64,000 nucleotides of DNA from Terriglobales bacterium (GCA_025934735.1 JAICWP010000003.1:1-64000); one strand, 5' to 3'; positions 543 to 43,978 are shown, counted from the stretch's first letter. The notes: a model not told the origin generated them from the sequence alone. Translations and numbers: made by a program.

Positions 543-617
543 TGGAGCGGGAGACGGGAATCGAACCCGCGACCAACAGCTTGGAAGGCTGTGACTCTAC
601 CACTGAGTTACTCCCGC
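543..617 (-). tRNA. tRNA-Gly(TCC)
   Basis: Complete cloverleaf on the minus strand. Acceptor stem GCGGGAG/CTCCCGC, anticodon loop CTTCCAA giving TCC, T-loop TTCGATT, and a genomically encoded CCA end at 543-545. Confidence 0.97.
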
Positions 618-662
618 CCTGCTGAATCTGTCTGCCCTTCCCGCAGATACAAGCTGATCCTC

Positions 663-738
<76 letters not shown>

Positions 739-752
739 TCGAACCCTTAACC

Positions 753-980
753 CTAGTGGCGGCCTTGAGCCGATCCATGTCCATTCACCGGCTCCGACCT
801 CTCCAGCAGTTCGCGTTTGTGGTGCAGCCAGCTACGAAAGGCGAACATGCCCAACACCACCAGGGTGATGACGCTCAGCGGCACTTGGCGGCCCGCCAGC
901 GAAACCGTCTGAGTCAGCGTGGTCACAGCCAGAATTCCCAGGACCACGAACGCGAGCATTGCGATTGAAAACCGGGACAA
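753..980 (-). CDS. Small two-helix membrane protein inside the tRNA-tuf operon
   Basis: 75 residues with two hydrophobic segments (about 5-28 and 35-51) and a charged C-terminal tail, so a small inner-membrane protein of unknown function. The start is TTG at 978-980: AGGAG at 988-992 lies 7 nt upstream, whereas the internal ATG eight codons later has no ribosome site. It sits between tRNA-Tyr and tRNA-Thr(GGT), with 14 nt to the latter, so it must be on the tRNA precursor transcript. Confidence 0.6.
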   Translation of the reverse strand: MSRFSIAMLAFVVLGILAVTTLTQTVSLAGRQVPLSVITLVVLGMFAFRSWLHHKRELLERSEPVNGHGSAQGRH

Positions 981-1016
981 CTGAAAACTCCTTCACGCCC
1001 AGCGTGAAGCCAAGCC

Positions 1017-1105
1017 TGGTGCACAGGGGAGGATTCGAACCTCCGTAGCTCGCAAGGAGCGGCAGATTTACAGTCTGCTGCCATTAACCACTCGGCCACC
1101 TGTGC
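1017..1105 (-). tRNA. tRNA-Tyr(GTA)
   Basis: Class II tRNA of 89 nt with a long variable arm. Anticodon loop CTGTAAA (GTA), acceptor GCACAGG paired with CCTGTGC, encoded CCA at 1017-1019. Confidence 0.97.
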
Positions 1106-1336
1106 AGAACCTTGCCAGGCGCGCCGCACCGTCCAGCGTCGGCCTCCATGAGCGAACCGGAACCACGCCGCCCGGCAGAATCCGCTACGAGCGCGAAAAT
1201 AAAGACGCAAGAGGAGGTCGTCTCCGCGCCCAACGCCATTTCACGTTTCTGAGTATGGAGTGCGTTCTCGGGAAATTATTATTCAGTAACCGCCCGGCCC
1301 ACCACTCGACTGCTAGCGCCTGAATTTGCTTTTACC

Positions 1337-1412
1337 TGGAGCTGGCGGAGGGATTTGAACCCCCGACCCTCTGATTACAAATCAGATGCTCTACCACCTG
1401 AGCTACGCCAGC
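1337..1412 (-). tRNA. tRNA-Thr(TGT)
   Basis: Complete cloverleaf. Anticodon stem TCTGA/TCAGA around TTTGTAA (anticodon TGT), acceptor GCTGGCG/CGCCAGC, encoded CCA. It is the first gene of the tRNA-tuf operon. The AT-rich patch at about 1545-1585, between it and the divergent gene at 1648, is where promoters for both should lie; I could not fix a convincing hexamer pair. Confidence 0.97.
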
Positions 1413-4220: not shown

Positions 4221-5231
4221 ATGCCGTTGCCAGAGAAAGCCCTGATAGCGCGTATCGCCCGCCAGGCACGGACTTCCGCTCCAGCGGCAGGAGCCAGGGG
4301 AAGGGACAAATATCAGAAGGCAAGTACCCGCACCGGGGTTGCCGGCCTCCTCCGCGGAATTGGCGATGACTGCGCCGTCCTACAGCTGCCTTCCGGGCAT
4401 GCAGCCCTGGTCACCACCGATTTCAGCCTGGAGGGAGTCCATTTCAAGCGTCGGTGGCACCCCCCGGAATCAGTGGGGCACCGCTGTCTGGCACGCGGTT
4501 TGAGCGATATCGCGGCCATGGGCGGAAAGCCCCTGGCAGCCTTTCTTTCCTTGGCTTTACCGTCCCGCATGCCGCAGGAATGGGTGGACCGGTTCTTAAA
4601 GGGGTTCCTGGGGCTGGCAAAGCGCTTTGCGGTGGTGCTGGCCGGGGGGGACACGTCGCAGTCGCCGGGATGCGTGCTAGCCGACGTCATCGTACTGGGC
4701 TCGGCGCCGGCGGGAACGGCCGTGCTTCGTTCCGGGGCGCGGGCGGGCGATTCCTTATATGTAACCGGGGAACTGGGGGCCGCGGCCCAGGTGCTTGCGA
4801 AACTGCGGTCGGGCAGGCTCAAGCGTCCCAGCCCACGCCGGTATCCTGCCCACTTCTTTCCCCTGCCTCGCATAGCCACAGGCCGCATCTTGCGGGTGAG
4901 GAGGGTGGCTTCCGCCATGATTGACATCAGCGACGGGCTCTCCACCGACCTTCGCCACCTATGCGAGGAAAGTGGTGTAGGAGCACGTATTTACGCGGAA
5001 AAGGTGCCCGCGGCGGGGGGTGCGGCTACCCTTCACTTTGCGCTTCACGGCGGAGACGACTACGAGCTGCTCTTTGCTGCCCGGGGCAAGGTTCCAGCCC
5101 GCATTGCGGGAGTTCCCGTCACCCGCATCGGCGAGGTCACCCGCGGGCGCAACGTGGTGCTGGTGGAAAATGGCCAGGAAAGGGAATTGCCGGCAGGCGG
5201 ATGGGAGCATTTTGGCCGCCGGCCCAGGTAA
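4221..5231 (+). CDS. thiL: Thiamine-monophosphate kinase
   Basis: 336 residues. ThiL phosphorylates thiamine monophosphate to thiamine pyrophosphate using ATP, the last step of TPP synthesis. Family motifs in order: GIGDDCAVL, TTDFSLEGVHF, ARGLSDIAAMGGKP, AGGDTSQ, ISDGLSTDL and the C-terminal GGDDYELLF. The N-terminus is about 25 residues longer than usual and Arg/Ala-rich before GIGDD, but the -10-like TATAGT just upstream supports this ATG. No TPP riboswitch is seen. Confidence 0.94.
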   Translation: MPLPEKALIARIARQARTSAPAAGARGRDKYQKASTRTGVAGLLRGIGDDCAVLQLPSGHAALVTTDFSLEGVHFKRRWHPPESVGHRCLARGLSDIAAMGGKPLAAFLSLALPSRMPQEWVDRFLKGFLGLAKRFAVVLAGGDTSQSPGCVLADVIVLGSAPAGTAVLRSGARAGDSLYVTGELGAAAQVLAKLRSGRLKRPSPRRYPAHFFPLPRIATGRILRVRRVASAMIDISDGLSTDLRHLCEESGVGARIYAEKVPAAGGAATLHFALHGGDDYELLFAARGKVPARIAGVPVTRIGEVTRGRNVVLVENGQERELPAGGWEHFGRRPR

Positions 5232-5309
5232 CGCAAGCGTCTCTGTACCCATGGGATGTTGCCGCTGGAGCGGGTTTCGCATACAAGAACGGCTGAGGAG
5301 AATTACCTG

Positions 5310-35328: not shown

Positions 35329-35706
35329 GGCTGCTTTGCCCCTATTATTTTAGCTCCCGCCCAGGTCTTCTGGGATGCGCCGGGTTGCGCCGGAGTCAGC
35401 CCGCCCGGCTCCCGCCTGGTCCTCCCGTCCAACCGCGTTCCTGGCCCGAAACAGTTCGCGGGAAGAAAACACGCTCCCGTGTAGGATTTTCAGAACGAAT
35501 TCCGGCATTAACTATTTTGACACTTGTCCAGGAGGAACTCTGGACGCACAATATTGCGCCTGCGGCGAACGCGTGCAAGTCCAGTCCTGCCGAGCAAACT
35601 TGCGTGCACGCCAGAGGATTCCCCCGCCATGGGCAATCGCATTGTTTGTGGTCCTCTGCTCTCCCGTTCAATAAGTGTCTTCCGTGTGGTCCGCCGACAA
35701 GCTGGA
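35329..35706. other. 378-nt region upstream of the Asp-box protein gene, no gene
   Basis: Apart from the promoter side of the 35328 gene, I see TTGACA at 35517-35522 (a perfect -35) but no -10 at normal spacing, and a short palindrome GACACTTGTC at 35519-35528. The frame of the 35707 gene is open from 35524, but the sequence before 35707 lacks a signal peptide and is probably non-coding. Confidence 0.45.
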
Positions 35707-38700
35707 ATGCGGCTCGCGTTGCGCCTCGTGCTGATACTTTTCTTGTGCGCCAGCTTGTTCGCGCAAGGAAACAGGCCGGCGCCTGAGCCGGAAGGCCCCA
35801 ACCACGACAATCCGCTGGCTCGCGAGCTATGGTTCCGCCACGGCCGCGTTGTGCCGGGAAAGCCAGGGGCTGCGGCCCGCCTGCTGCGTCACGCTTACCA
35901 GCAGAAGATGAAACTGCGCGCCACGCGTTTGCAGGCGATGCGTGGGGCGGGGATGAGCGCTTACTCGGCCAGTTTAGCTACTGCGACGGCCAGTTCCACG
36001 AGCGGCTACGGTGGCTGGGTGCCGCTGGGGCCCGCCCCTCTCAACTCCAACGCCAGCGGCAGCCTGGGAGAGCAGGACTACGGTCCGGTGACCGGGCGCG
36101 CCACCTCCGTGGTGGCCGATCCTGGCGATCCGACCGGCAACACGGTGTACCTGGGCGGTGCCTACGGCGGATTATGGAAGTCCACCAATGCTGCCGCTAG
36201 CAGCCCTTCGGCAGTGACCTGGACACCTTTGATTGACCAGCAGGCGACGCTGGCAGTGGGCTCGGTGGCCGTCCAGCCCAGCAGCAGCGGGCCCAGCAGC
36301 GTAGTGCTGGTGGGCACAGGTGAAGCCGACTTCTCCATTGATTCCTACTACGGGCTGGGCATCTTGCGCTCCGCCGACGGCGGCAATACGTGGACGCTAA
36401 TCAGTTCCGCCAATGGAGCACAGTTCTCCGGCGTGGCCTTCGCTAAAATTGCTTTCAGCACCGACAATCCCAACCTGGTGGTAGCGGCGGCAACGGGCTC
36501 CGGCAACGACGAGGGGGCGAGCAACTTTGGGAATGCGCCCGGCCTCTACACTTCCGCTGATGGCGGCCAAACCTGGACCATGGCTCTTCAGGGCGCATTT
36601 CCGGGCATCGGCAGCACATCCGTGATCTATGACTCCGCCGGACACAAATTTTTTGCCTTCCTGCAATTTGAGGGTTATTACACCTCGACCGACGGCATGA
36701 GCTGGCATCGGCTGGGCAGCCAGCCTGGCAGCGCCTTGCAGAATTGCCCCACCGGCAACAACGGCGGCCCTTTCTGCCTGGTGTTTCGCGGAGAAATGAC
36801 GGCTGTGCCGGGACGCGAGGAGCTTTACACCTGGTACGTCACTATTGATAACCAGGGAAACATCGGTGATGGCGGTATCTATAAAACGACCAATGGCGGC
36901 GGCTCCTGGCAGCAGGTGAGCGACAGCGGCATCACCAACTGCGGCGATGGAAATGGGAACGGCTGCGGAGTGGAGCAAGGCTGGTTCAACCTGGAGCTGG
37001 CGGCTGTGCCCAACGGTACGGGCACCGACCTTTACGCCGGCGCGGTAAATATTTACAAGTGCTCCATTACCGCCGCCAACAGCCTGTGTGCCACACGGCC
37101 GTTCATCAATCTCACGCACGTGTATGGCTGCAGCCCGGTGGGCTCGCTCTCCCACGTCCACCCCGACCAGCACGGCATAAGCTTCGTCCGGCCGAACCCC
37201 TCGCAGGCAGTTATGTACTTCGCCAATGACGGTGGCATTTACCGCGCACTCAATGGCTATGCGCTCAGCTCCGGGACCTGCGGCACCGCCCCGAACCCGT
37301 TTCAGAACCTGAACGCAACCATGGGTTCCATGACCCAGTTCGTGGATTTTTCCAACAGTCCCAGCGACGTCAACACTGTGCTGGGCGGCACGCAGGACAA
37401 TGGCTCGCCGGCTACCAGCAATGACGGGAGCAGCTGGATTTCGGTGAATGGCGGCGACGGCGGATTCAACGTGATTGATCCCGTTTCCGGCATGTGGTTC
37501 ACGTCCAACACCGACGTCAGCGTGCAGAGCTGCCCCAGCGGCATCAACTGCCTGGAACAAACCTTTACCCCCATTGTGACCAATTCCACGGTGGGCGGCG
37601 ATCACGGATTCTTCTACACGCCCTTCATTCTGGACCCGCAGGCGGATAGCCGCATGATGGTAGGGACCTGCCGGCTGTGGCGCGGCAACAGCAACGGCAG
37701 CGGATTCAGCGCGCTGAGCTACAACTTCGATAGCGTGATGAATCAGGTTCTAAATGCGGCGTGTACCGGAGGGGAGACGCAACTCATTCGCTCTATTGCT
37801 GCCGGCGGGCCGAACACTGCGAACGGGTCCTCAGTTATTTATGTGGGCACCGAGGGTGGATTTGTATCGAATGGAGCTGGGGGGAGCTCACCAGTTGGTG
37901 GTCACATCTGGGCGACGAACGATGCGGACTTAGGCGCCTTTACTTGGGCCAACCAAACTGCCGTAGGTGACGGACCGGACCCCATATCCAGCATCGCAGT
38001 TGATCGCCGTGATCCTAGCGGCAACACTGCCTATGCCACTGTCATGGGTTTCGGCACTGCGCACGTATTCCAAACTACGGACCAGGGTCTAACATGGTAT
38101 GCCGAAGGCTTTGGGCTTCCGAACGCTCCGGTTGATGCTGTCCTGATTGACCCCGACGACAGCAACACCTTTTACGTGGCCACCGATGTTGGCGTCTACA
38201 CCAGCCATGATCTCCAAAATTGGACCGAACTAGGGCAGTTGCCCAATGTCCCGGTTCTGCAATTAAAGATGTTCGAATCCGGCGGGGGGAAACAGCTCCG
38301 CGCAGGCACCTATGGGCGTGGCATCTGGTCCTACGATATTCCTTACCAGATCACGATCACTACTCCGCATGTTCATCTATTCCCTGGTCAGACCGGAACC
38401 ATGCATGGCGTAATCACCGGCTATAACGGATACAACAGTCCCGTTGCCATCCAGTGTGCACCCAACGCTTTTCCCGGAACTTGCACCGGTACAACTCTTA
38501 CCCCCATGTCCTCGGGAACGCCTTTCTCTCTGACCCTGACACCCGTAAACGCACCTGCTGTGGATTACAGTTTTGCAATCGAGGGCACGGGAACAGATCC
38601 CAACAACACTAGCGCGCAAACTGCCCCGGTGACCCTTAGTATTTCCGACTATTCTTTCGTTGTACCGTCTCCGACTAACCTGACGGTTAACCAAGGGGCT

Positions 38701-39819
38701 ACTTCGGCCGCGGTAAATCTTCCATTGACCGCCTTCTACCAGCCGATCACTCTTTCTTGCTCGAACCTGCCGGTCGGCGCAACCTGCAATTTCTTCCCCT
38801 ACGCCACAGTTCCGCCTTCCAATTTCGACAACATCATCTTGACCGTCAGCGCGGGTCCGAATACGCCCTTAGGCACTTCAACCATCACCGTTAGCGCCAA
38901 CTCTCCCGGACAGCCCTCAGCCAAAAGCGGCCCTGTCTCCCTTTCTGTCACCAACAGCCCCGATTACAGCATGCTGACCTCGCAGCCTGCTCCTGCGATC
39001 GCGGGCAGCGCTGCAACTGCTCAGATAACGTTAACGCCATCTCAGGGATATTCTGGGCCGGTGACCCTGTCCTGCTCCGTCGCCGTCGGTATTACCTGCT
39101 CCATGTCGCCGCCGAGCCCCATTACTTTGGCAGGGGCTCCGGTTACGGTCACCGCCACCATCTCCACTCCACTGACTAACGGCGCGACCATAGGCGGGTA
39201 TTTCGAGGTGCCTTTCACGGCCACTGCCCCAGGAACTGTTACCCACTCCACCGCTGTGCACGTTACCGTCACCGATTTTGCGCTGGGTGCTCGTACTAAC
39301 AGCGCTACTGTCCTAGCAGGCCAGCCCGGGCAGTACGAGCTAAACGTTATTCCTGGTGTGGCTCCCTTTACCAATCCCATCTCTTTCTCCTGTTCCGGCC
39401 TGCCCCCGGGCACCGCGTGCTCCTTCTCCCCGGCCACCGTGACACCGGGCAGCTCGCCAGCCATCGTAGTGCTGAGCATCAGCACACCAAAAAGCTTGGC
39501 CGAGCTACACCCCGCCGCTCCGCTAAGTGAGGACTTACTCTTATTCAGTATGCTCTTGCCGGGCATGGTCCTGAGTCTTTCGGGCGGCATAAGAAGCAGG
39601 AGATCGCCATTTACCCTTTTGCTGATCGTGGTGCTCGCTACGTTGCTTTTCCAGCCCGCTTGTGGTGGTGGAGGCAGTGCAGGGCCACCCACGCCACCCA
39701 CTCCAACTCCGGCACCCGCGCCTCAGCCTTTCTCGACAACTTACCCCGTTGTTCTGACCGCCAGTTCGGGCACGGTGCAGCACCAAGTCAATTTGAATTT
39801 AGTGGTCTGGCAACAGTAA
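35707..39819 (+). CDS. Giant secreted Asp-box beta-propeller protein with Ig-like repeats and an internal membrane insert
   Basis: 1,370 residues from ATG 35707, where a signal peptide begins (RLALRLVLILFLCASLFA, cleavage near A|QG). First ~820 residues: sortilin/Vps10-like propeller with Asp-box motifs such as SADGGNTWT, SADGGQTWT and TTNGGGSWQ. Then about five Ig-like beta-sandwich repeats (SCSNLPVGATCNF, SCSVAVGITCSM, SCSGLPPGTACSF). The last repeat is interrupted by two hydrophobic helices and ACGGGGS plus a Pro linker before its final strands (QHQVNLNLVVWQQ). Base composition becomes less GC-rich from about 37,780 on. Probably a cell-surface adhesin or polymer-binding protein. Confidence 0.8.
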   Translation: MRLALRLVLILFLCASLFAQGNRPAPEPEGPNHDNPLARELWFRHGRVVPGKPGAAARLLRHAYQQKMKLRATRLQAMRGAGMSAYSASLATATASSTSGYGGWVPLGPAPLNSNASGSLGEQDYGPVTGRATSVVADPGDPTGNTVYLGGAYGGLWKSTNAAASSPSAVTWTPLIDQQATLAVGSVAVQPSSSGPSSVVLVGTGEADFSIDSYYGLGILRSADGGNTWTLISSANGAQFSGVAFAKIAFSTDNPNLVVAAATGSGNDEGASNFGNAPGLYTSADGGQTWTMALQGAFPGIGSTSVIYDSAGHKFFAFLQFEGYYTSTDGMSWHRLGSQPGSALQNCPTGNNGGPFCLVFRGEMTAVPGREELYTWYVTIDNQGNIGDGGIYKTTNGGGSWQQVSDSGITNCGDGNGNGCGVEQGWFNLELAAVPNGTGTDLYAGAVNIYKCSITAANSLCATRPFINLTHVYGCSPVGSLSHVHPDQHGISFVRPNPSQAVMYFANDGGIYRALNGYALSSGTCGTAPNPFQNLNATMGSMTQFVDFSNSPSDVNTVLGGTQDNGSPATSNDGSSWISVNGGDGGFNVIDPVSGMWFTSNTDVSVQSCPSGINCLEQTFTPIVTNSTVGGDHGFFYTPFILDPQADSRMMVGTCRLWRGNSNGSGFSALSYNFDSVMNQVLNAACTGGETQLIRSIAAGGPNTANGSSVIYVGTEGGFVSNGAGGSSPVGGHIWATNDADLGAFTWANQTAVGDGPDPISSIAVDRRDPSGNTAYATVMGFGTAHVFQTTDQGLTWYAEGFGLPNAPVDAVLIDPDDSNTFYVATDVGVYTSHDLQNWTELGQLPNVPVLQLKMFESGGGKQLRAGTYGRGIWSYDIPYQITITTPHVHLFPGQTGTMHGVITGYNGYNSPVAIQCAPNAFPGTCTGTTLTPMSSGTPFSLTLTPVNAPAVDYSFAIEGTGTDPNNTSAQTAPVTLSISDYSFVVPSPTNLTVNQGATSAAVNLPLTAFYQPITLSCSNLPVGATCNFFPYATVPPSNFDNIILTVSAGPNTPLGTSTITVSANSPGQPSAKSGPVSLSVTNSPDYSMLTSQPAPAIAGSAATAQITLTPSQGYSGPVTLSCSVAVGITCSMSPPSPITLAGAPVTVTATISTPLTNGATIGGYFEVPFTATAPGTVTHSTAVHVTVTDFALGARTNSATVLAGQPGQYELNVIPGVAPFTNPISFSCSGLPPGTACSFSPATVTPGSSPAIVVLSISTPKSLAELHPAAPLSEDLLLFSMLLPGMVLSLSGGIRSRRSPFTLLLIVVLATLLFQPACGGGGSAGPPTPPTPTPAPAPQPFSTTYPVVLTASSGTVQHQVNLNLVVWQQ

Positions 39820-42307: not shown

Positions 42308-43978
42308 TCAGATCCCTCGTCCTTCTACGCATTCATAGGCTCGCCCGGTGGCGAGGTTTTTGAACTCCTCGGTGCGCCCGCTGGGCCACTGAATCGTGGC
42401 ATGCTCGATGCGGTCGCGTTTGCCCACTCCGAACGTGACCGGCAGCTCGGATTGCGAAAGATAGCTGGAGCCGCCCTTCACCATGCGCGACTGGCTGCTG
42501 CCGCCGGCGTAAATTCGCACGATCGCCCCAATGGCATCGCGGTTGGATTTCTTGCCCACCAGGCGAAAGCGAATGCTGCGGTTGCCGGCCAGCTGATCGT
42601 TTCTATAAAGGAACGCCGAACTATTATTGGTGGTCATGAGCAGGTCGAGGTCGCCATCGCGGTCAAAATCGCCATAAGCCAGGCCGCGCCCCACTTTCGG
42701 CCGGTCGAAGGAAATACCCGCTTGCGCCGCTACGTCATGGAAGTGGCCCTTGCCATCGTTCAGGAACAGTTGCGGCGGCTGGGCATAGCCCACATTGCCG
42801 CGAATGTTACGCACCGTCTCGTCAATGTGCCCGTTGGCCACTACCAAATCCAGGGCACCGTCCAGGTTTATGTCCGCAAACACGCAGCCAAAGCCCAGCG
42901 TGTTGCGCGAAGGCGCCCCTACGCCTGCAGACATGGCCACGTCGTCATAAATATGCTTGCTGCCCATGCGGAAGAGTCCAATCATCTCGTTGTCAAAATT
43001 GGTGATGGCTACGCCCGGAGCGCCCGAACCGTCAAAGTCGCCGGTGTCCACGCCCATTCCGGCGCGCGCTTTGCCTTCCGCGCTGAAGGCAATGCCCGAC
43101 TCTACGCCCACTTCCTTGAAGGTACCGTTGCGCTGGTTGCGGTAGAGCTTGTTGGGTTGCGTGTCATTGGCGATCAGCAGGTCGGGCCAGCCATCCTGGT
43201 CGAAGTCGAGCATGGCAACGCCCAGCGACTTGGAGCTGGTATCGAAGATGCCGCTGCTCGGGGTTACATCTTCGAAGGTGCCATTGCCGCGATTGTGAAA
43301 CAGCCAGCAAGTCTCGCCGCGGTAAGCCTCGGGCGTGCAGTAGGACTTGTGCTTGCCATCCAGGCTGCAGAAAACGTCGTGGGCAGGCGACCACTTCACG
43401 TAATTGCATACCACCAGGTCTAGCAGCCCGTCGCGGTCGTAGTCGAACCACAGGGCGGAGGTGCTGAACGCTTCGCGCCCGCCCAGCCCGGCAGCCTGGG
43501 TCGCGTCAACAAATTTCCCGCCGGTGTTCTTGAACAGGCGGTTCTGGCCCACACCGGTGATCAGGATATCGGGGTGGCCGTCATTGTTGTAGTCGCCCAC
43601 GGCCACGCCCATACCGTACATCTCCACGTCGAGGCCGGCGCGGCGGGTGACATCGCTGAAGGTGCCATCGCGGTTGTTGCGGTAAAGGCGCAGGGTGGTG
43701 TGCTCGCGCTTGTGGCCGGGCCAATCCATGCCGTTGACCAGCAGGATGTCCTGCCAGCCATCGCTGTCGTAATCCAGGAAGGCGCAGCCCGAGCCCATGG
43801 TTTCGGGAAGAAATTTGCCGCCAAACGCACCGGAATTGTGCAGGAAATGAATGCCGGCGCGCGCAGTCACATCCACCAGGCGGAATCCAGGTCCGGCAGC
43901 CGCGGACCACAGCTCTGAAGGGAGCACGGCAGCGCCGGCCAGCCCTCCGAGTCCCTGGAGAAATGACCGCCGGTTCAC
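42308..43978 (-). CDS. Tat-exported FG-GAP/ASPIC-UnbV (CRTAC1-like) protein
   Basis: 556 residues. Tat signal (NRRSFLQGLGGLAGAAVLPS). Repeated FG-GAP/VCBS blades such as DYDSDGWQDILLVNGMDW, DYNNDGHPDILITGVG and DFDQDGWPDLLIAND form a beta-propeller with Ca-binding-like D-x-D-x-D loops. C-terminal ASPIC/UnbV domain (about 480-550; VKGGSSYLSQSELPVTFGVG, TIQWPSGRTEEF). Function unknown for nearly all homologues. The ATG overlaps the response-regulator stop by 4 nt (ATGA), so translation is coupled to a two-component system. Confidence 0.9.
   Translation of the reverse strand: MNRRSFLQGLGGLAGAAVLPSELWSAAAGPGFRLVDVTARAGIHFLHNSGAFGGKFLPETMGSGCAFLDYDSDGWQDILLVNGMDWPGHKREHTTLRLYRNNRDGTFSDVTRRAGLDVEMYGMGVAVGDYNNDGHPDILITGVGQNRLFKNTGGKFVDATQAAGLGGREAFSTSALWFDYDRDGLLDLVVCNYVKWSPAHDVFCSLDGKHKSYCTPEAYRGETCWLFHNRGNGTFEDVTPSSGIFDTSSKSLGVAMLDFDQDGWPDLLIANDTQPNKLYRNQRNGTFKEVGVESGIAFSAEGKARAGMGVDTGDFDGSGAPGVAITNFDNEMIGLFRMGSKHIYDDVAMSAGVGAPSRNTLGFGCVFADINLDGALDLVVANGHIDETVRNIRGNVGYAQPPQLFLNDGKGHFHDVAAQAGISFDRPKVGRGLAYGDFDRDGDLDLLMTTNNSSAFLYRNDQLAGNRSIRFRLVGKKSNRDAIGAIVRIYAGGSSQSRMVKGGSSYLSQSELPVTFGVGKRDRIEHATIQWPSGRTEEFKNLATGRAYECVEGRGI

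Follow-up and report, generated by a model that had tools for sequence, protein, structure and literature searches.

The window, that is the whole 64,000-nucleotide stretch of Terriglobales DNA analysed here, carries on its plus strand a soil bacterium's gene for a large secreted protein whose C-terminal tail is the subject of this work. Its features are as follows (basis in brackets).

35707-39819, +: whole gene, secreted Asp-box protein with Ig-like repeats and a split-Ig tail (1370 aa)
35707-35763, +: N-terminal Sec signal peptide of the signal-peptidase-I type, MRLALRLVLILFLCASLFA, predicted cut before Q (sequence)
35764-38646, +: passenger, Asp-box / sortilin-like beta-propeller and the region up to the second Ig-like repeat (weak profile matches)
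38647-39273, +: two intact Ig-like repeats, residues 981-1085 and 1086-1189 (sequence)
39274-39489, +: split Ig domain, first part, six strands, residues 1190-1261 (AlphaFold2 and structural match)
39490-39732, +: 81-residue insert between Ig strands, residues 1262-1342 (AlphaFold2 and repeat alignment)
39535-39588, +: hydrophobic helix 1, residues 1277-1294 (sequence; hydrophobicity of helix 1 in 100 tails)
39589-39606, +: Arg-rich loop IRSRRS, residues 1295-1300 (loop charge across 100 tails)
39607-39660, +: hydrophobic helix 2, residues 1301-1318, ending in the putative lipobox (...LLFQPA) (sequence, AlphaFold2)
39661-39663, +: codon of Cys1319, the invariant lipobox Cys (101-row alignment; 40/40 in the masked-model test)
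39664-39732, +: G/P-rich linker after the Cys, where some relatives have whole domains (variant comparison)
39733-39816, +: C-terminal beta-hairpin completing the Ig domain, residues 1343-1370 (model strands E153-164 and E167-178; structural match)

The open reading frame is taken from the ATG at 35707; a mechanical ORF list instead begins it at a TTG at 35524. Two profiles, PF15902 and NF045728, match the passenger weakly and below their cut-offs, and its assignment is based mainly on recognised repeats. Elsewhere in the window lie a long secreted-looking protein with FG-GAP/ASPIC-type repeats and a Tat-like N-terminus, MNRRSFLQGLGG, recognised by eye (42308-43978, minus strand), and, at the window start, a cluster of four tRNA genes (Gly, Thr, Tyr, Thr; 543-1412, minus strand).

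The last Ig-like repeat and its insert

Ig-like repeats begin at residues 981, 1086 and 1190. The third is interrupted by residues 1262-1342, which read KSLAELHPAAPLSEDLLLFSMLLPGMVLSLSGGIRSRRSPFTLLLIVVLATLLFQPACGGGGSAGPPTPPTPTPAPAPQPF and run in the order helix, Arg loop, helix, ACGGGG and Pro-rich linker; the repeat resumes at residue 1343. With the insert removed, this last repeat aligns with the intact repeats upstream. Residues 1191-1370 were modelled with AlphaFold2 from an alignment of 101 sequences, giving a mean pLDDT of 82: block means are 94-98 in the six strands that precede the insert and in the pair that follows the Cys, and 50-80 in the insert. On structure comparison, model residues 1-178 match a single uninterrupted Ig domain in the Micromonospora viridifaciens sialidase (residues 406-502; Z 12.6, rmsd 1.9, 95 aligned residues). 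Since both flanks match this one domain, the final hairpin supplies the end of a fold whose first part precedes helix 1; in the predicted structure the two flanks are one Ig domain that is split, rather than two segments that are merely adjacent. A sequence-only reading of the window had described the last beta-sandwich repeat as broken by two helices, ACGGGG and a Pro-rich linker before resuming, and had proposed AlphaFold as a check. The repeat alignment, the model and the sialidase match all bear this description out, with pre-insert strands and post-Cys hairpin forming one confident Ig domain.

The lipobox-like cysteine

In an alignment of 101 tails the Cys is the sole invariant column (101/101). 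The residue at -1 is G, A or S in every row, -3 is mostly L, A, M or V, and +1 is mostly G, S or A. Across 100 tails the last K/R lies 14-22 residues ahead of the Cys, and the loop between the helices holds 3-8 K/R and almost no D/E; the hydrophobic core before the lipobox has a mean hydropathy of 2.35. Because a profile search itself favours the Cys, a masked model was used, with X in place of the Cys and of the four residues flanking it on either side. In the 40 tails read, one per genome and all from genomes outside the model's training set, the Cys and a G/A/S at -1 were present without exception. A point against lipoprotein-type processing is the Gln at -3 in the window's lipobox, FQPAC, a residue that is uncommon yet recurrent (7/40 of the masked-test tails). 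An automatic screen overlooked the lipobox in 4 of 75 loci (L261, L274, L321, L333); inspection by eye found it in all four.

Helix 2 together with the Cys looks like a standard lipobox: there is G/A/S at -1, Cys at +1, and a run of positive residues followed by a hydrophobic core, as in substrates of Lgt and LspA. The genome has an LspA gene, and N-terminal lipoprotein-like sequences from the same genome show alike cut sites (VLSA/CGGGGSS and VLTA/CGGGGST), the set coming from some 0.8 Mb of genome together with the window and having been picked with a crude rule, which admits false members. The signal is, however, not N-terminal: the Cys is residue 1319 of 1370, so the tail would work like a lipoprotein signal, yet the protein is no ordinary lipoprotein. 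Nor does it duplicate a lipid anchor at the other end, since the N-termini of tailed proteins are almost all of the signal-peptidase-I type (88, against 6 lipobox-like, 3 with no signal found and 3 truncated); the six were flagged by a loose rule and mostly have an AxA-type site just downstream. The conserved lipobox supports the earlier suggestion of an anchoring device with the Cys as its likely lipidation site.

The same conservation bears on a simpler possibility, namely that the tail is an uncut two-helix anchor in the inner membrane, with the Ig domain folded around it in the periplasm and the Cys lipidated uncleaved or otherwise used. Two helices and a positive loop would alone retain a protein in the membrane, and the AlphaFold2 model shows that the Ig domain can form with the chain left whole. 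What this leaves unexplained is a strict Cys with G/A/S at -1 next to helices that vary freely, and we regard it as quite improbable.

Classification, recurrence and spacer variants

The sequence-only reading had called the anchor undescribed. That word has to be withdrawn, for the tail already belongs to an NCBIfam family, though we found no paper naming it. Profile NF058595 (invert_tail; NCBIfam release 20) matches residues 1254-1367 of the 1370-residue protein (E 3.3e-14; 53.2 bits against a cut-off of 37), and the tail alone at 56.6 bits. By NCBI's cut-off the tail is a member, the match lies at the protein C-terminus as the family demands, and all 101 aligned tails match as well; in most of 100 other tails the match ends 0-3 residues, and at most 22, from the end of the reading frame. 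The model bears the title 'lipo-invert putative C-terminal anchoring domain'. Comparison with the family was by model name and description line, to which the split-Ig structure and the spacer variants are added here. A search of one literature library for the lipo-invert name or an internal lipobox tail found no relevant paper, and Pfam has no above-cut-off model on the tail. What appears to be new here is the split-Ig architecture, together with the masked-Cys test and the spacer variants.

The layout had also been ascribed to the ends of many long proteins secreted by Acidobacteriota, and a profile search of Acidobacteriota proteomes had been proposed; the profile searches run here found the recurrence. 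NF058595 matches seven tails above cut-off in the window's genome (weaker matches, under the cut-off, in control genomes were taken to be noise). In a sample of the phylum 33 of 297 genomes matched at E <= 1e-9; the window's family accounts for 31 of these and one other family for the remaining two. A wider model, built from masked tails, matched 58/60 genomes of the window's family at E <= 1e-6 and 183/299 genomes of the class at E <= 1e-8, these being concentrated in the window's family and two others. The richest genome has at least 14 tails. Nearly all named records with the tail are Acidobacteriota, and the passengers among those scanned are diverse (beta-propellers, a phosphoesterase, a possible glycoside hydrolase).

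One complete tail lies outside the phylum, on a 1.06-Mb contig of a betaproteobacterial metagenome-assembled genome (Ideonella sp. H5_PRO6, 5001-5282; locus L333), while 150 other genomes of the Ideonella family gave no tail at E <= 1e-9 (1/151 overall). This lone tail fits a single transfer, and it fits the use of general machinery. By eye, the reading frames flanking it look betaproteobacterial. A second candidate phylum was dropped: a tail in a record titled Rhodanobacteraceae (L273, CAJCHN010000074.1) comes from a family whose genomes share coordinates and scores with the window's family, and appear to be that family, so the title is most likely wrong. The L273 assembly holds about 11 tails.

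A scan seeded on the hairpin sequence recovered variants, mostly of subtilisin-like proteins from subdivision-2 Acidobacteria, in which one or more complete domains stand between the Cys and the hairpin (L282, L283, L294, L296, L299, L302, L303, L309, L312, L322). They share the same half-Ig, two helices and lipobox Cys, both halves are in register (alignment A5), and the terminal hairpin is kept in all of them. The usual distance from the Cys to the C-terminal end is about 34-74 residues; in eight related subtilisin-like proteins it is 133, 136, 144, 231, 232, 235, 333 and 605, rising in increments of roughly 100, which is how long the inserted Ig repeat is. In two proteins unrelated to these the position is taken by an FN3-like domain (L322) or by a different domain (L312). 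NF058595 matches spacer variants as two stretches and misses the largest spacer. The simplest reading of these sequences is that the hairpin is needed to complete a distant half-Ig and that the inserted domains are spacers. For the one-spacer protein L309, AlphaFold2 modelled the spacer as a complete Ig domain but assigned low confidence to both the split half and the hairpin, and the spacer Ig was all that structure comparison brought back; with such low confidence for the halves, pairing across the spacer is something we infer.

The proposed anchor and its relation to known systems

Four computed results enter the explanation that we favour: the split Ig domain, the conservation of the lipobox, the N-terminal signal peptides and the retention of the hairpin. 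On this explanation, to which we give a probability of roughly 0.6, the tail is an anchor of the lipoprotein type that has been shifted to the C-terminus and incorporated in an Ig domain, cut through the Lgt/LspA pathway and held by a hairpin clamp; it would probably attach large secreted proteins to the membrane by way of a beta-hairpin that bears the lipid. Export would begin at the N-terminal Sec signal, to be cut by signal peptidase I. Helix 1 would then stop transfer, crossing the membrane from outside to inside, the Arg loop would remain in the cytoplasm, and helix 2 would serve as an internal lipoprotein signal peptide. Lgt would add diacylglyceryl to the Cys and LspA would cleave ahead of it, leaving a new N-terminal Cys that bears the lipid, the linker or spacer domains and the last Ig hairpin. 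This lipidated hairpin would insert into the waiting half-Ig of the passenger as a non-covalent clamp, so that the passenger would be tied to the lipid through the reassembled Ig domain and not by a peptide bond. Topology, lipidation, cleavage, the clamp and the final membrane (inner or outer) are what we infer in this scheme. Its fuller form, a two-chain surface anchor in which LspA severs the last Ig, the lipidated hairpin re-joins it and interchangeable spacers set the distance between membrane and passenger, is more tentative, and we put it at a little under even odds.

After the LspA cut the passenger would still end in the hairpin of helices 1 and 2 and may therefore be retained in the inner membrane if helix 1 is not cut as well; across the tails, no conserved motif for such a further cut was found. 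In E. coli an Asp after the lipoprotein Cys is an inner-membrane retention signal. No Asp follows the Cys in the aligned tails, an absence that would allow sorting to the outer membrane by the E. coli rule, which may not hold here. The lack of Asp would suit processing at both ends, in which LspA acts at the Cys and a rhomboid or similar intramembrane protease within helix 1, freeing a clamped two-chain protein for the outer membrane. Pro/Gly and small residues abound in helix 1, and the genome has four rhomboids, one of them about 1.3 kb from an exosortase gene; but rhomboids occur in all 14 of 14 control genomes, which makes their presence uninformative, and helix 1 is without a conserved motif. 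Processing at both ends is in our judgement unlikely.

Ahead of helix 1, P1269 was considered as a sorting motif, being present in 95 of 99 ungapped rows. An ungapped count gave a Pro in 0.93 of tails against 0.85 expected from composition, so the column mostly reflects the aligner's stacking of Pro-rich linker, and P1269 was rejected; a Pro so near composition also speaks against a cut at helix 1. It bears likewise on whether the tail is a C-terminal sorting signal for a dedicated sortase of the exosortase, rhombosortase or myxosortase type, for which no matching signature stands ahead of helix 1. A hydrophobic helix followed by an Arg cluster does resemble sorting tags, and the genome has one exosortase. 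In such tags, however, the Arg cluster is the C-terminus, whereas here a second helix, a lipobox and a half-Ig follow it, and the singleton in Ideonella also argues against a dedicated partner. We consider a dedicated sortase very improbable. The protease or sortase for which the sequence-only reading had proposed a co-occurrence search need not be invoked, because the lipobox is the only strictly conserved linear motif and the lone Ideonella copy is intact. The exosortase-family gene lies at G000:C40:56421-58906, with the rhomboid-family gene about 1.3 kb off on the other strand; neither the exosortase nor the four rhomboids are implicated by the evidence.

If lipidation and clamping are true, the ordinary lipoprotein pathway can anchor a protein C-terminally with an Ig domain as the joint. 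This would explain how a large share of the long secreted proteins of Terriglobia are retained by the cell, would mean that signal predictors that consider only the N-terminus misplace tailed proteins, and would offer a modular route for protein display. If the two-chain reading is also true, the tail would represent a lipoprotein anchor whose hold depends on protein complementation.

Among the closest known systems is the Lgt/LspA lipoprotein signal, with which the tail shares a positive n-region, a hydrophobic core, a G/A/S-Cys lipobox and a G/S-rich tether; it differs in being internal, near the C-terminus, and entered from outside via the preceding helix. MYXO-CTERM tags have an invariant Cys, predicted to be lipidated, before one helix, with the Arg cluster last (PMC11980579). 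The tail resembles the MYXO-CTERM/myxosortase system in being a C-terminal anchor with an invariant, predicted-lipidated Cys, a transmembrane helix and an Arg cluster, but its order is helix, Arg, helix, Cys, hairpin, which is not that of MYXO-CTERM. Helix 1 and the Arg cluster likewise resemble the second and third parts of the GlyGly-CTERM/rhombosortase and PEP-CTERM/exosortase signals; unlike these, the tail has no Gly-Gly or Pro-Glu-Pro conserved ahead of helix 1, and its chain continues. That the device is unlike PEP-CTERM and LPXTG was rightly judged from the sequence, for a helix, a lipobox and a hairpin lie beyond the Arg cluster and no motif precedes helix 1; type IX secretion uses a conserved C-terminal domain that is cleaved upon recognition by PorU, and type IX models in NCBIfam or Pfam gave no match on the tail. 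In chaperone-usher pili, donor-strand complementation completes an incomplete Ig fold with a strand or strands from a separate polypeptide. Here the likeness is one of working principle only: the proposed hairpin is a product of the same gene as the half-Ig that it would complete, and it would bear the lipid.
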